From Clostridiales bacterium (GTDB lineage: Bacteria; Bacillota; Clostridia; Peptostreptococcales; T1SED10-28): a DNA stretch of 34,027 nt. Below the pieces are notes generated by a model. The model was given only the letters and a program-made list of their open reading frames with translations, searched no databases and was not told where the DNA came from. The stretch lies in contig SKRE01000154.1 of the NCBI GenBank assembly GCA_007118655.1, positions 1 to 34,027 of the forward strand, in the 5' to 3' direction. The translations under genes were made by a program, and so were the position numbers. This document shows, piece after piece, positions 17,561-30,179 of the stretch; positions within the stretch are counted from its first letter, which is position 1, and the number at the start of each line of letters is the position of its first letter.

Positions 17561-19054
17561 CTAAAAGTCTTTTAAAATTTCCTCTTTTTTTTCCAGGGCT
17601 TCCTCAATACGGTCCATGTAATGCCCCAGACCTTTAATGTTTGGAACCCGTTTTACTTCATCGGTCTTTAAGTTTACAACCTTCGATACGGCTCCCGCTC
17701 CAAATCCCAGAATCGTCTCTTTTTCCGACATGATTTTCATATTGTACAGGGACTGCCCGCCTTTTTTGCTATAGCCCACATTTTCAAAATTCCCCAGCAT
17801 ATTCTTTTGTCGATACATATAATAGGGAATATAGCCATGCTCCTTCGTAAAACCCTCAATTTTGTCCAGCATTTTAAGAACCCCCTCTTCTCCGAGGGTC
17901 AATAGATCCTGGTGCTCTTTTAAATAAGAATTGGTTTTAATCGCAAGGGTATGCACCGTCAAATTTTCCGGCTGCAGTTTTGCAATTTCCTCCAGGGTAT
18001 GGTCCAGGGACTGTTCAGTTTCTCCCGGCAAGCCGATAATCAAATCCATATTCACGGATTCAAACCCCACTTTTCGGATCATCCCGTAGGCTTGATGAAT
18101 CTGTTCAGGGCTGTGTTTTCTGCCGATGGCGATCAAGGTCTCTTCATTCATGGTCTGAGGATTCAAACTGATTCTTCCCACCCCGTGATCTTTTAGACAC
18201 TGCAGTACTTCCATGGAAAAAGTATCCGGTCTTCCCGCCTCTACGGTAATTTCTTTTAGCCGGGAATAGCCTTCAAGATCCTGCAGCGCTGCAAACAAGG
18301 CTTCGAACTGTTCCCGGTTAAGGATGCTCGGTGTGCCTCCTCCCACATACAGAGTGTTGACTTTGATGTTCTTTTGATTAATTATTTTTATTGAAGCTTG
18401 CAGTTCTTGAATAAGCTTGGTTAAATACTGCTGTACTTCCCCTTCCTTACGATAAAGATCATTGGATGGAAAGGAACAGTAATAACAACGGCTGGGACAA
18501 AAGGGAATGCTGACATAAATATTGAGGGCTCTTTGCTCTAAGGGGTAAATTAATGCCCGCTCTTCCTTGGCAATGTCAATTAACAGCCGGGCTTTATCTT
18601 TTTCTAAGAATTTTTCTTCTGTCAGGGTTTGAAAAATCTCGTCGCAGCCCATAGAGGCTTCCAGCATATTCTGCACGATCTTTACCGGTCGGATCCCCGT
18701 AAAAATCCCCCATACCGGCTTTTTTCCCGTCAGCTCCCTCAGCACCATAAATAAGCAGCTTCGCAGAGCTTCTCTTTGGTTTTTGTCGTAGGCCAGGGCC
18801 TTTTCCCGGGGTTGTAACTTCTCATCGGGGATTTTCACCGGCCTTTGATGTTCTGCGGTTTTACCCTGAATCTTTCCTTGGGCAGCGGCCCGGAGAGTAC
18901 CCGTTAGATCCTTTTCCAAACGGGATATCACAAAATCCTTCTCCCGGGATAGCTGAGCCATTTCTTCGTATATTTCCACCTCGGAATCAAAGAGTTTGGT
19001 TAATTCCCTTGTATCGTAAATATTTTTATGTCCTCGTAGGATCACTTGAATCAT
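17561..19054 (-). CDS. hemZ: HemZ-like radical SAM coproporphyrinogen III oxidase-related protein
   Basis: Radical SAM motif CPSRCYYCSFPS, LYVGGGTPSIL, RISLNPQTMNEETL, NMDLIIGLPGE. Confidence 0.88.
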   Translation of the reverse strand: MIQVILRGHKNIYDTRELTKLFDSEVEIYEEMAQLSREKDFVISRLEKDLTGTLRAAAQGKIQGKTAEHQRPVKIPDEKLQPREKALAYDKNQREALRSCLFMVLRELTGKKPVWGIFTGIRPVKIVQNMLEASMGCDEIFQTLTEEKFLEKDKARLLIDIAKEERALIYPLEQRALNIYVSIPFCPSRCYYCSFPSNDLYRKEGEVQQYLTKLIQELQASIKIINQKNIKVNTLYVGGGTPSILNREQFEALFAALQDLEGYSRLKEITVEAGRPDTFSMEVLQCLKDHGVGRISLNPQTMNEETLIAIGRKHSPEQIHQAYGMIRKVGFESVNMDLIIGLPGETEQSLDHTLEEIAKLQPENLTVHTLAIKTNSYLKEHQDLLTLGEEGVLKMLDKIEGFTKEHGYIPYYMYRQKNMLGNFENVGYSKKGGQSLYNMKIMSEKETILGFGAGAVSKVVNLKTDEVKRVPNIKGLGHYMDRIEEALEKKEEILKDF

Positions 19055-19189
19055 TATTAACGCCCCTTTTCAGCAGTTGAGTTGATATTGTGCTATTGGT
19101 ATTGAATGGTATTGAAGTTTACAGTAAATTACTATAGAATCTTTTATAACATACTGTATGATAAAAAACAATAAGGATGTGGAAATCCC

Positions 19190-20428
19190 ATGAATAAAGT
19201 CCATCTTACCTTTGTCCAAATGGATATCGAGAAGAATCAATTTCAAAAAAACAAGGAGAAAATTCGAATGCTTCTTCAAAAGGCGGACCCTACGGATTTC
19301 ATCGTCCTTCCGGAGATGTGGTCCGTGGACTTCGATTTTAAGAACATGAAAAGTCATGGAGAAAATTATGATAAGCCTTTACAGTTTTTACAGCAGCTGG
19401 CCCGAAAACACAAGGCCACAATTGTGGGCGGCAGTGTCCCCCAGCAAACGGGGGACAAACTGTTTAACACCACCTTTGTTATCAATCCCACGGGAACCCT
19501 TCAGGGAATGTACTGGAAGATGCACCTGGTTTCCCAGGATAATTTGGAAGGTCAGATATTCGATCGGGGAGACAGAATTCCAAGGTTTTTCTCCCCTAAA
19601 GCCTCTTTTGGCGTTACCAACTGTTATGATCTTCGTTTCCCCGAGATTTTCCGGGGCATTTCGTTAAACGGCTCGGAAATTATTTTTCTGGTCGCCCAGT
19701 TTCCGGAACCTTTGTATTCCCACTGGATTACCCTGTTAAGGGCTCGGGCTATTGAAAACCAAGTATACATTGCTGCGGTCAACCGGGTGGGCCCCGGCTA
19801 TTTCGGTCACTCCCTGGTGGTGGATCCCCAGGGGGAAGTGATTTTTGAAGGAGACCAATCAGAAAATCTTTACCAGATTACTATTGATTTGGACCGGGTA
19901 AAGCAGGAAAAAGAAAAACGGAATGATTTATCCGTCATTAACGAACATGCCTATAATAAATGGGTCTACCCCCATAATTTTATCGGTGTGGGGGGCCTGC
20001 TGGAGATTGACGACAGGGTATTGATGGTTAAACAGAATTACGGCCGCCTAAAAGGCATGTGGTTAATGCCGGGAGGGCATCTGGACAAAGGAGAGAAGCT
20101 GAATCAGGGAGTGGAACGGGAGGTTCTTGAAGAAACCCAGATAAAAGGGGAAGCTACGGATATTATTGCCATTCGGTCCAACAGTACCGAAGAGGTTGTG
20201 GACTGCTACATCGTATTTAAAATGGACTATATCGAAGGCACACCCATCCCCGACGGATTCGAGAACACCGATGCCCGTTTCTTTACAAAAGAGGAAATCA
20301 TGACCCGCCAGGATGTGGCTCCCTTAGCTGCGGAAATCATCCAGTATTATTTTGAAAACAAACATCGGGGGTTTAAGGAACGTAAAGACTTTGCCTCCTT
20401 TAACGACGATTATACGCTTTACACCTAG
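19190..20428 (+). CDS. Carbon-nitrogen hydrolase (nitrilase/omega-amidase-like) fused to a C-terminal Nudix hydrolase domain
   Basis: Nitrilase E/K/C: LPEMWS, YWKMHLVSQ, FGVTNCYDLRFPEIFR; Nudix box GGHLDKGEKLNQGVEREVLEET. Confidence 0.92.
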   Translation: MNKVHLTFVQMDIEKNQFQKNKEKIRMLLQKADPTDFIVLPEMWSVDFDFKNMKSHGENYDKPLQFLQQLARKHKATIVGGSVPQQTGDKLFNTTFVINPTGTLQGMYWKMHLVSQDNLEGQIFDRGDRIPRFFSPKASFGVTNCYDLRFPEIFRGISLNGSEIIFLVAQFPEPLYSHWITLLRARAIENQVYIAAVNRVGPGYFGHSLVVDPQGEVIFEGDQSENLYQITIDLDRVKQEKEKRNDLSVINEHAYNKWVYPHNFIGVGGLLEIDDRVLMVKQNYGRLKGMWLMPGGHLDKGEKLNQGVEREVLEETQIKGEATDIIAIRSNSTEEVVDCYIVFKMDYIEGTPIPDGFENTDARFFTKEEIMTRQDVAPLAAEIIQYYFENKHRGFKERKDFASFNDDYTLYT

Positions 20429-27634: not shown

Positions 27635-28741
27635 CTAGGCCTTAAAATTATAAATCGGTTTCAAATGTTTAAGAATCAGCACGGTAGGATGAATATGCTT
27701 TAGGATGTCCTCCATGGGTTTATATGCCATGGGGGCTTCGTCTAGGGTCTTAGAGCTTACGGAGGAGGAATAAATCCCCTTCATGGACTGTTTAAAAGCT
27801 TCCATGGATACCTGTCTTTTCGCTTCCCGCCGACTCATCAACCGGCCCGCACCATGGGGGGCGGAGTAGTTCCAATCCGCATTCCCAAGTCCTTCTCCCA
27901 GGAGACTGCCGTCCTTCATATTAATGGGGATCAAGACCTTTTCCCCTTTTTTAGCGGAAACCGCTCCCTTTCGAAGAATGTTTTCCTTAAGATCTATATA
28001 GTTGTGAATGGTATGAAAACTCTCTTCCATAGTAAAGGGACGGTTGAAAAATTCTTCCATCACTTTTCTTGCCATCACTTCCCGGTTAACCTTTGCATAA
28101 CGTTGAATCAAGTCCATATCGTGTAAATAATCTTCCAACTCTTTTCCTTCAAGGTAGCAAAGCTCTTTTGGAATTTCCCTTTGATCCTTTAGATTTTTTT
28201 GAGCGATTTTTTGATAGTATCTTGCAATCTGATTTCCTAAATTACGGCTGCCGCTGTGAAAAACCAGATACTGTTCCCCTTCGTCATCCCTATCAATTTC
28301 AATAAAATGGTTTCCTCCCCCAAGACTGCCCAGGGCTAAATTAAATTCCTCCGCACTTTTATCCAAGGCAGCAATGCCCTTAAGGCTCTTGATTTCCTTC
28401 ACATAATCAATCTGGGGCTTCTTATGATTTTTAAAACCGCTGGGAATGTTTCCCCGAATATACAAATCCAGTTTCCGTAAATCCACTTCCTTCTTTCCGA
28501 TGGGTACCGTAAGCATGCCGCAGCCAATATCCACCCCCACAAGATTGGGCACCACTTTATCCGTTACGGTCAGAGTCGTCCCGATGGTTGAACCCATACC
28601 CGCATGGGCATCGGGCATCACCCGTATTTTAGTATCTTTTAAAAACCATTGATCGCATAAAGTTTGAATCTGTTCTTTTGTCTGCTCCTCCAGTTCATCG
28701 CTGAAAACCTTGGCTTCGTTGTATTTTCCTTTGATTATCAT
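27635..28741 (-). CDS. rtcB: RtcB family 3'-phosphate RNA ligase
   Basis: MPDAHAGMGSTIGTT, GVDIGCGM, SLGGGNHFIEI, VFHSGSRNLGN, YSAPHGAGRLMSRREA. Confidence 0.95.
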   Translation of the reverse strand: MIIKGKYNEAKVFSDELEEQTKEQIQTLCDQWFLKDTKIRVMPDAHAGMGSTIGTTLTVTDKVVPNLVGVDIGCGMLTVPIGKKEVDLRKLDLYIRGNIPSGFKNHKKPQIDYVKEIKSLKGIAALDKSAEEFNLALGSLGGGNHFIEIDRDDEGEQYLVFHSGSRNLGNQIARYYQKIAQKNLKDQREIPKELCYLEGKELEDYLHDMDLIQRYAKVNREVMARKVMEEFFNRPFTMEESFHTIHNYIDLKENILRKGAVSAKKGEKVLIPINMKDGSLLGEGLGNADWNYSAPHGAGRLMSRREAKRQVSMEAFKQSMKGIYSSSVSSKTLDEAPMAYKPMEDILKHIHPTVLILKHLKPIYNFKA

Positions 28742-28764: not shown

Positions 28765-29013
28765 TTATTCGGATAAATGCTTTTCAATAATACCCGGCAT
28801 TTTAAAAATCGAGGGTACCCGGCCTTCCACCGCAATTTCTCCGTTGATGATCAAGGCAGGGGTCTCTGTCACTCCATAGCTATGAAATTCCCGGGGATTA
28901 CAGATCATGGTTATTTCACTTTTAACTTCTAATCGTTTTAAGGCCTCATCCACGATGGGCCGAAGTTTTGAGAATCCTCATCCGATATCCTCCAATATAA
29001 TAATAGGCAGCAT
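28765..29013 (-). CDS. Candidate selenoprotein: 82-aa small thioredoxin-fold (thioredoxin_3 / redox-active-disulfide-like) protein with in-frame UGA (Sec12)
   Basis: ATG 29013-29011 with GGAGGG 5 nt upstream; codon 12 is TGA (28980-28978), then open to TAA. Product MLPIIILEDIG[U]GFSKLRPIVDEALKRLEVKSEITMICNPREFHSYGVTETPALIINGEIAVEGRVPSIFKMPGIIEKHLSE; cis-Pro loop ETPALIINGE; U at the first position of the expected CxxC. The tracked 62-aa ORF begins only after the TGA. Confidence 0.75.
28942..28961 (-). promoter_or_regulatory. Candidate bacterial SECIS hairpin downstream of the in-frame UGA
   Basis: RNA GGCC-CAU-(CGUGG)-AUG-A-GGCC: 4 GC pairs, C-G, A-U and U-A, one bulged A, loop CGUGG starting 24 nt after the UGA, G among the first two loop nt. 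Confidence 0.65.
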
Positions 29014-29082
29014 CAAATCCCTCCAATCTATTAATATATTACCCATTTTTTTGTTTTATTATGAACTTCTTTTGGATTTTCA

Positions 29083-29163: not shown

Positions 29164-29643
29164 ATGTTTACGGTAATTCTCTACGTATTGGCCTCAATCT
29201 TATTATTGCTGTCTTTTGTTAAGGATCGAACGAAAACTAAAAAAGCCTTGATCAAAGCCTGGAAATCTTTTGAAAGCATTCTGCCCCAATTTATCGGCAT
29301 CCTGGTGATTATCGGTTTAATGCTGGCAGTGATCGATCCGGAGACCATCTCCCGACTGATCGGAGGAGAATCCGGATTTTTCGGGATGCTTCTTGCCGCC
29401 ATTGTCGGCGGCATAACCTTAATCCCCGGCTTTGTAGCCTTTCCCCTGGCTGCAACTTTACTGAATAACGGAGCGGGTTTTATGCAAATTGCTGTTTTTA
29501 TCTCCACCTTAATGATGGTGGGTATCGTAACCCTACCCTTGGAGATTCAGTATTTTGGGAAACGGGCAGCGATTCTTCGAAATACCCTGGCCTTTTCCTT
29601 TTCTTTTGTGGTAGCCTTAGTGATTGGAGTGGTGTTAGGATGA
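29164..29643 (+). CDS. Permease half-protein (COG0701/DUF318-like), subunit A
   Basis: 159 aa, about 5 TM; IVGGITLIPGFVAFPLAATLLNNGAGFMQIAVFISTLMMVGIVTLPLE; RBS aaaggag. Confidence 0.8.
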   Translation: MFTVILYVLASILLLLSFVKDRTKTKKALIKAWKSFESILPQFIGILVIIGLMLAVIDPETISRLIGGESGFFGMLLAAIVGGITLIPGFVAFPLAATLLNNGAGFMQIAVFISTLMMVGIVTLPLEIQYFGKRAAILRNTLAFSFSFVVALVIGVVLG

Positions 29644-30179
29644 AAAAAATACTCAATCGTTACAAGTTTGCACTTATTTTAATATTCCTCAATGTGATTC
29701 TTTTATTTCTCCTGCCGGAAATCGGCTTTTCTTCCTTAGGGCACACAAGGGATAATACAATGGAAATGCTGTACGTGGTCCCGCCGATTTTTATCATTCT
29801 CGGCCTGTTGGATGTTTGGGTGCCCCGGGAAACCATGATCAAGCTTATGGGAGAAAAATCCGGTCCCCTGGGCAAATTAATCGCCTTTTTAATGGGATCC
29901 CTGGCAGCAGGACCCTTGTATGTGGCTTTTCCCGTTGCCGGTCTTTTGCTTAAGAAAGGCAGTAAATTTTCCAATGTACTGATTTTCATCGGTGCCTGGT
30001 CCACAACCAAAATTCCGCTGTTATTATTTGAAGCAAGCGCTCTGGGTTGGACCTTTATGCTTACCCGGTTTACGGTTAATATCTTTGTGATCCTTCTGAT
30101 CGCAGGATTGACGGAAAAGTTGTTAAACACCGCGGATAAAACCCAGATATACGAAAAAGCTCACTCCTTAAGTAATTAG
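29640..30179 (+). CDS. Permease half-protein (COG0701/DUF318-like), subunit B
   Basis: 179 aa; LMGSLAAGPLYVAFPVAGLLLKKGSKFSNVLIFIGAWSTTKIPLLLFE; 4-nt ATGA overlap with subunit A. Confidence 0.8.
   Translation: MKKILNRYKFALILIFLNVILLFLLPEIGFSSLGHTRDNTMEMLYVVPPIFIILGLLDVWVPRETMIKLMGEKSGPLGKLIAFLMGSLAAGPLYVAFPVAGLLLKKGSKFSNVLIFIGAWSTTKIPLLLFEASALGWTFMLTRFTVNIFVILLIAGLTEKLLNTADKTQIYEKAHSLSN

Follow-up and report, generated by a model that had tools for sequence, protein, structure and literature searches.

The minus-strand frame at positions 29013 to 28765 of a clostridial contig almost certainly encodes a selenoprotein with a minimal thioredoxin fold, to judge from its sequence and from those of its relatives. 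The contig was analysed over its whole stretch of 34,027 nucleotides, which we call the window, and its host is presumably a soda-lake clostridium. The high confidence covers the identity of the gene as a selenoprotein gene and the fold of its product. The task of the protein in metalloid or thiol handling is graded separately.

The frame reads MLPIIILEDIG-U-GFSKLRPIVDEALKRLEVKSEITMICNPREFHSYGVTETPALIINGEIAVEGRVPSIFKMPGIIEKHLSE, contains a single in-frame TGA and ends at the TAA at 28765-28767. If the TGA (codon 12, 28978-28980, minus strand) is taken as a selenocysteine (Sec) codon, the product has 82 amino acids and matches PF13192 Thioredoxin_3 with 44.7 bits (1.4e-11), above the curated cut-off of 24.8. 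Its active site would be GUGFSK, with Sec12 followed by Ser15 (28969-28971), the position of the resolving Cys in CxxC relatives; in our alignment A1 this position holds Ser in all Sec members and Gly in the only Cys form. The ATG at 29013 has the ribosome binding site GGAGGG 5 nt upstream (29019-29024), and comparable sites lie 5' of the homologues. The start, the spacing, the TGA at codon 12 and the frame open to the TAA had all been described in the initial annotation and are present in the sequence as described. Alignment A1 also agrees with its placement of the UGA at the N-terminal catalytic Cys and of Ser15 at the resolving Cys.

Mechanical ORF calling yields a shorter frame (28765-28953, minus strand), which begins at a GTG after the UGA and was correctly regarded in the initial annotation as a misannotation. 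This GTG-started ORF could be taken to mean that the UGA does end translation, the outcome being an 11-residue leader and, after a restart, a shortened protein. Such a protein, however, would have neither the first strand nor the active site; upstream of the UGA every homologue keeps conserved, in-frame codons; and the restart codon lies inside the region of a conserved hairpin. Restart is accordingly a very improbable account of the locus.

Conservation of the UGA across the order argues for its being a sense codon. A first search, of 98 related genomes, detected the gene, each time with a single internal TGA, in every one of the five genomes of the genus, the window's own included, and in further genera. 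A profile built from the 16 members of alignment A1 was then run on 395 genomes of the order and returned 23 close homologues at 92 bits or more; the next match (66 bits) is an ordinary protein without a TGA. The same codon is TGA in 22 of the 23, from 20 genomes, 12 genera and 6 families, and among these 22 stop-bearing homologues it is never TAA or TAG. We read 21 of the 22 genes in sequence, and the TGA stands at the aligned codon in each. (Contigs L005, L006 and L007 are the same as those of genomes G003, G004 and G001 and were counted once.) A phylum sample of 399 genomes gave no further member at the level of 92 bits or more, and the plasmid and viral collections searched held no relative of the gene. 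Two genomes, G066 (one copy on contig C37) and G110, each carry two copies of the TGA gene in different neighbourhoods. Homologues with TGA and one with Cys thus align at U12, the kind of support that the initial annotation had looked to; the aligned Cys residues are that of G018 (CCKGGK) and the first Cys of the GCxxC paralogues. In the tree, 22 rows (the 21 Sec proteins and the Cys form) are separated from 32 relatives by a branch with support 100/100. Of these relatives 31 have CxxC-type sites and one has UxxC; the final tree leaves out P_L109, a row in the wrong frame, and one long-branch paralogue. These comparisons support the assignment of the gene to a clostridial subfamily of selenoproteins that occurs in 12 genera or more.

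A single in-frame stop might also mark a pseudogene, in which a chance nonsense mutation has hit an ordinary CxxC thioredoxin-like gene. In practice the conservation of the TGA has already refuted this reading, since the same stop, always TGA, would have to be shared by 22 homologues of 12 genera. In addition, selection downstream of the UGA is purifying within the genus (dN 0.07-0.17 against dS 0.40-1.24), the hairpin is conserved, and the resolving site holds Ser, never Cys. The initial annotation had considered a chance nonsense mutation unlikely; with the TGA kept in 22 homologous genes and the downstream codons under purifying selection, we see next to no chance of it.

The second line of evidence is a hairpin in the mRNA. 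At 28943-28960 (minus strand), 17 nt after the UGA, the window has the SECIS-type structure GCC-CAUC-GUG-GAUG-A-GGC with covarying pairs. Its apical loop lies 24 nt after the UGA and begins with G, and an A is bulged on the 3' side; this position of the loop and its leading G fit what we take to be the bacterial SECIS pattern. The consensus of 21 members is GCC-CAUC-GUN-GAUG-N-GGC, likewise starting 17 nt after the UGA. Of the 147 pairs possible in these members, 140 form. In 2000 synonymous shuffles that kept each protein and its local codon use the number was 93.2 +/- 4.3 and at most 107; these figures overstate independence because of the shared descent of the members and the overlap of the hairpin with conserved codons. 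Compensatory changes on both sides occur at three of the seven pairs, and the covariation score is above all 500 shuffles. Together with the loss of the hairpin in the Cys form, the compensatory changes are evidence independent of the shuffle numbers that relatedness inflates. The paired cells amount to 94.7% in the hairpin and to 24-51% when its strands are slid. Within the genus the hairpin codons show fewer synonymous differences (0.17) than codons 26-79 (0.34). The structure is not equally good everywhere: in four members, which form five or six pairs, the hairpin taken singly does no better than chance (P 0.08-0.28), and G095 and G010 have a weak lower stem. An Rfam scan of the region found no family matching the hairpin. 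Minimum-energy folding of the UGA region by itself is not decisive (z from -1.7 to +0.6); the covariation in the family is. The SECIS-like hairpin which the initial annotation had placed after the UGA therefore stands as the conserved element at 28943-28960, but the small stem that the folding program puts next to the UGA is unconserved.

Is the genome equipped to insert Sec? The initial annotation had made its reading depend on selA, selB, selC and selD. The MAG to which the window belongs is 63.8% complete, in 200 contigs. Its SelD is over the cut-off (L117:373-1287, contig C109) and has the canonical in-frame TGA in SSGUAGK. Neither selA nor a full selB nor the gene for tRNA-Sec (selC) was found in its contigs; four candidates for tRNA-Sec were rejected as tRNA-Gly, Ser, Leu and Glu. 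In the congeners G001, G002 and G003 (completeness at least 98%), the genes selA and selB and that for tRNA-Sec (anticodon TCA) sit in one cluster, so that one missing contig would explain the three absences. The expectation thus holds for selD in the MAG itself and for selA, selB and selC in near-complete congeners, while the 64% MAG has none of the latter three. Overall, 18 of the 20 genomes that carry the TGA gene have selA; the other two are the window's MAG (64%) and G004 (79% complete).

A further gene of the MAG (L120:1429-2160, contig C59) has an in-frame TGA in TAGUGTCH, adjoins a GRDB-family match and is identified by its sequence as PrdB of D-proline reductase. A TGA-bearing PrdB and SelD in the same genome point to Stickland-type fermentation of amino acids and to the use of Sec. 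GrdA, which was also sought in the MAG, gave a sub-threshold match only, in an uninterrupted ORF.

These known Sec sites bear on another possibility, namely that UGA has been reassigned throughout the genome to Trp or Gly and is here an ordinary sense codon. TGA is indeed rare as a stop in the window (one of 29 genes). Yet that one gene, permease A, is terminated by TGA, none of the 29 has an internal TGA, and the in-frame TGAs found in the genome are those of SelD and PrdB. The Cys ortholog, moreover, points to Cys/Sec chemistry at the codon. The initial annotation had already cited permease A in arguing against genome-wide reassignment, and we agree that such a reassignment has hardly any probability. 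As to the stops themselves, the 29 genes use TAG 16 times, TAA 12 times and TGA once; for a clostridium TAG is unusually common and TGA rare. We also considered an ORF joined across a TGA at 17561-19357 (minus strand), which would link a 95-aa ORF to a radical-SAM-like gene. It was rejected as due to chance, the TGA being in the upstream part, antisense to another ORF.

The sole exception among the 23 homologues is instructive. In G018, a genome in one contig and 99% complete, Cys occupies the UGA position (CCKGGK). The same genome has no SelA match, and no SelB, SelD or tRNA-Sec above the cut-off. Its hairpin is lost, with none of the seven pairs formed. Since orthologues of the genes that surround the TGA forms of G062 and G007 flank the Cys gene, the locus is the same. 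The tree does not decide whether Cys came from Sec (AU p 0.16 and 0.24, the latter for a Sec-only clade), and a derivation of the Cys form from a Sec form would rest on synteny.

An AlphaFold2 model of the protein is a confident minimal thioredoxin fold (mean pLDDT 94.4). The nearest solved structure, both in fold and in sequence, is MTH895, 1ILO (E 2e-4, TM 0.75). What sets the subfamily apart is its active site. In all 21 Sec proteins read, the resolving Cys is replaced by Ser, and each of them has exactly one other Cys, either 26 residues after Sec (U+26) or just before it (U-1), never both or neither. The window protein belongs to the GU type, with Gly before Sec and Cys at U+26, which comprises eight members from genera g1 and g23; the other 13 are of the CU type, with Cys at U-1. 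As the GU type forms one branch (98/95), the pattern probably reflects one switch that has been kept ever since. The CUGG of the CU-type relatives resembles the adjacent Cys and Sec in the tail of mammalian thioredoxin reductase (Gly-Cys-Sec-Gly). That tail is C-terminal in a flavoprotein and is not a thioredoxin-fold active site, and the window protein is of the GU type.

The sole other Cys of the window protein is Cys38 (28900-28902, minus strand), proposed from the pattern of Cys across the family as the partner thiol of Sec12. It directly follows strand 32-37 of the model. In the thioredoxin topology such a strand ends on the active-site edge, and for this reason a selenenylsulfide between Sec12 and Cys38 is plausible in the model.

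These observations point to the following mechanism. SelB carrying Sec-tRNA-Sec would recognize the hairpin at 28943-28960, so that ribosomes read through UGA-12. The product would be a minimal fold of the MTH895/ArsE (Thioredoxin_3) type, with Sec12 in place of the N-terminal catalytic Cys and Ser15 in place of the resolving one, and its partner thiol would have moved to Cys38 or, among the sister groups, to the position immediately N-terminal to Sec. Comparison of sequences establishes how codon 12 is read, that the hairpin is present, to which fold family the protein belongs, and that the CxxC pair is lost and one Cys stands elsewhere instead. Beyond this, we infer that Sec12 might attack a substrate disulfide, a sulfenic acid or a metalloid thiolate, that Cys38 might resolve the adduct as a selenenylsulfide, and that thioredoxin reductase or a low-molecular thiol might then reduce it. 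It is also conceivable, and here we are decidedly tentative, that the rebuilt pair (Sec first, resolving Cys lost, partner at U-1 or U+26) makes the protein a selenenylsulfide enzyme with a dedicated client, which could be the ArsP_1-type permease system or, in the window's genus, RtcB.

How does the subfamily relate to known systems? It shares with the MTH895/ArsE family (TIGR00412; PF13192; 1ILO) its length, its fold, the segment GV..TPAL.ING and its presence in ars-type clusters, and in six genomes (G095, G066, G032, G057, G090 and G110) it stands in tandem with CxxC members of that family. It differs in that Sec and Ser replace the first and the second Cys, and it forms a separate branch (100/100). 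Against TIGR00412 the window protein scores 42.1 bits, below the curated cut-off of 62, and the CxxC pair of that model is missing, all Sec members being UxxS.

A compilation of 2026 lists as PF13192 selenoproteins only Sec.1 (CxU) and Sec.2 (UxC) of Brachyspira (PMC13188914). Like the window protein they are Thioredoxin_3 selenoproteins clustered with a Cys homologue, but in them Sec precedes the Trx domain, as part of an N-terminal extension (PMC5330540), whereas Sec12 is inside the domain, at the CxxC position. The UxxS motif is listed for other families only, namely arsenate reductase TIGR00014, peroxiredoxin-like cd02970 and rhodanese form 1 (PMC13188914). These too have Ser three residues after Sec, as here, in different protein families. 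SaoT (NF040730) with the SaoE/SO_0444 efflux genes is another thioredoxin-like Sec protein in a metal-linked cluster, and a permease next to the gene in G066 is related to SaoE; SaoT, however, is listed as UxxC, and neither the window protein nor the A1 members matched NF040730. No dedicated model of NCBIfam 20.0 was matched by the subfamily proteins. The subfamily is missing from the compilation of 2026 (PMC13188914), and genome annotators may already label some of its members. Outside the clostridial subfamily, the deltaproteobacterial MAG SM23_61 has a Thioredoxin_3 gene (L008:4992-5222) of UxxC type, in which TGA takes the place of the first Cys in CxxC (GMGUPKC).

Suggestions about function come from the neighbourhood. 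Divergent from the selenoprotein gene in the window is a split ArsP_1-like permease, its only neighbour there of ars type. Permease A, the first half (29164-29643, plus strand), matches ArsP_1 at 1.3e-5 with 25 bits, below the cut-off of 32.3. Permease B, the second half (29640-30179, plus strand), matches above the cut-off (2.7e-14), and the TGA stop of A overlaps it in ATGA. The two halves are 62% (A) and 50% identical to a pair near a copy of the gene in G066, within an ars region (L066:3586-11750, contig C37). There ArsR, ArsM, ArsN1 and a CxxC gene of the ArsE family lie directly upstream of the selenoprotein gene, an ArsP_1/SaoE-related permease lies downstream and an ArsC-type protein is encoded further on. 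(The ArsN1 is arsinothricin acetyltransferase.) Both ArsR and an ArsP_1 permease occur near the homologue in G095, G007 and G032, and ArsR in G006 and, by similarity, in G057. A CxxC paralogue is directly upstream in G095, G032, G057, G090 and G110. The metalloid link is not universal, because the gene comes after ilvBN in genus g23, and loci of the G061/G062 type have other neighbours. Judging from the neighbours, the usual task may be the handling of metalloids or thiols with ArsP_1-type permeases under ArsR regulation, for which we would allow a chance somewhat below even.

On its other side the gene is followed by rtcB, encoding a 3'-5' RNA ligase (27635-28741, minus strand; Pfam RtcB 7.4e-68), 23 nt downstream and with its own ribosome binding site. 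In G002 (L056:1-387, contig C2) the contig ends 3' of the selenoprotein gene in an apparent transposase fragment, and rtcB is on another contig. Could the main job of the selenoprotein in this genus be to keep the neighbouring RtcB reduced, by analogy with human thioredoxin and PYROXD1, which guard the active-site cysteine of RTCB? The gene order is suggestive: rtcB lies 23-26 nt 3' on the same strand in four of the five congeners, and the VDIGCG cysteine is kept in the window's RtcB. Oxidised human RTCB, moreover, is bound and reactivated by thioredoxin (PMC10653391). But the linkage was found nowhere else among the loci examined than in this one genus, whose whole neighbourhood is conserved, and even there it is broken in G002. 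RtcB was also not found in 7 of the 17 Sec-form genomes searched, and as a general partner it was therefore rejected. Maintenance of RtcB within the genus appears improbable to us, and we favour the selenol redox or metalloid role linked to ArsP_1.

Beyond what the initial annotation described, the analysis brought to light the wider subfamily, the displaced partner Cys, the syntenic Sec/Cys pair and the ArsP/ArsR and rtcB surroundings. Whatever its exact task, the protein adds a subfamily to the prokaryotic selenoproteome, and gene-calling programs for which UGA is a stop would cut the gene short in 12 or more genera. With its partner Cys in one of two positions, the subfamily offers a case in which the rewiring of a thioredoxin active site around selenium can be put to the test. 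Finally, one syntenic locus that occurs in a Sec and a Cys form, where hairpin and Sec machinery have been lost together, is a natural experiment on the exchange of Sec for Cys.
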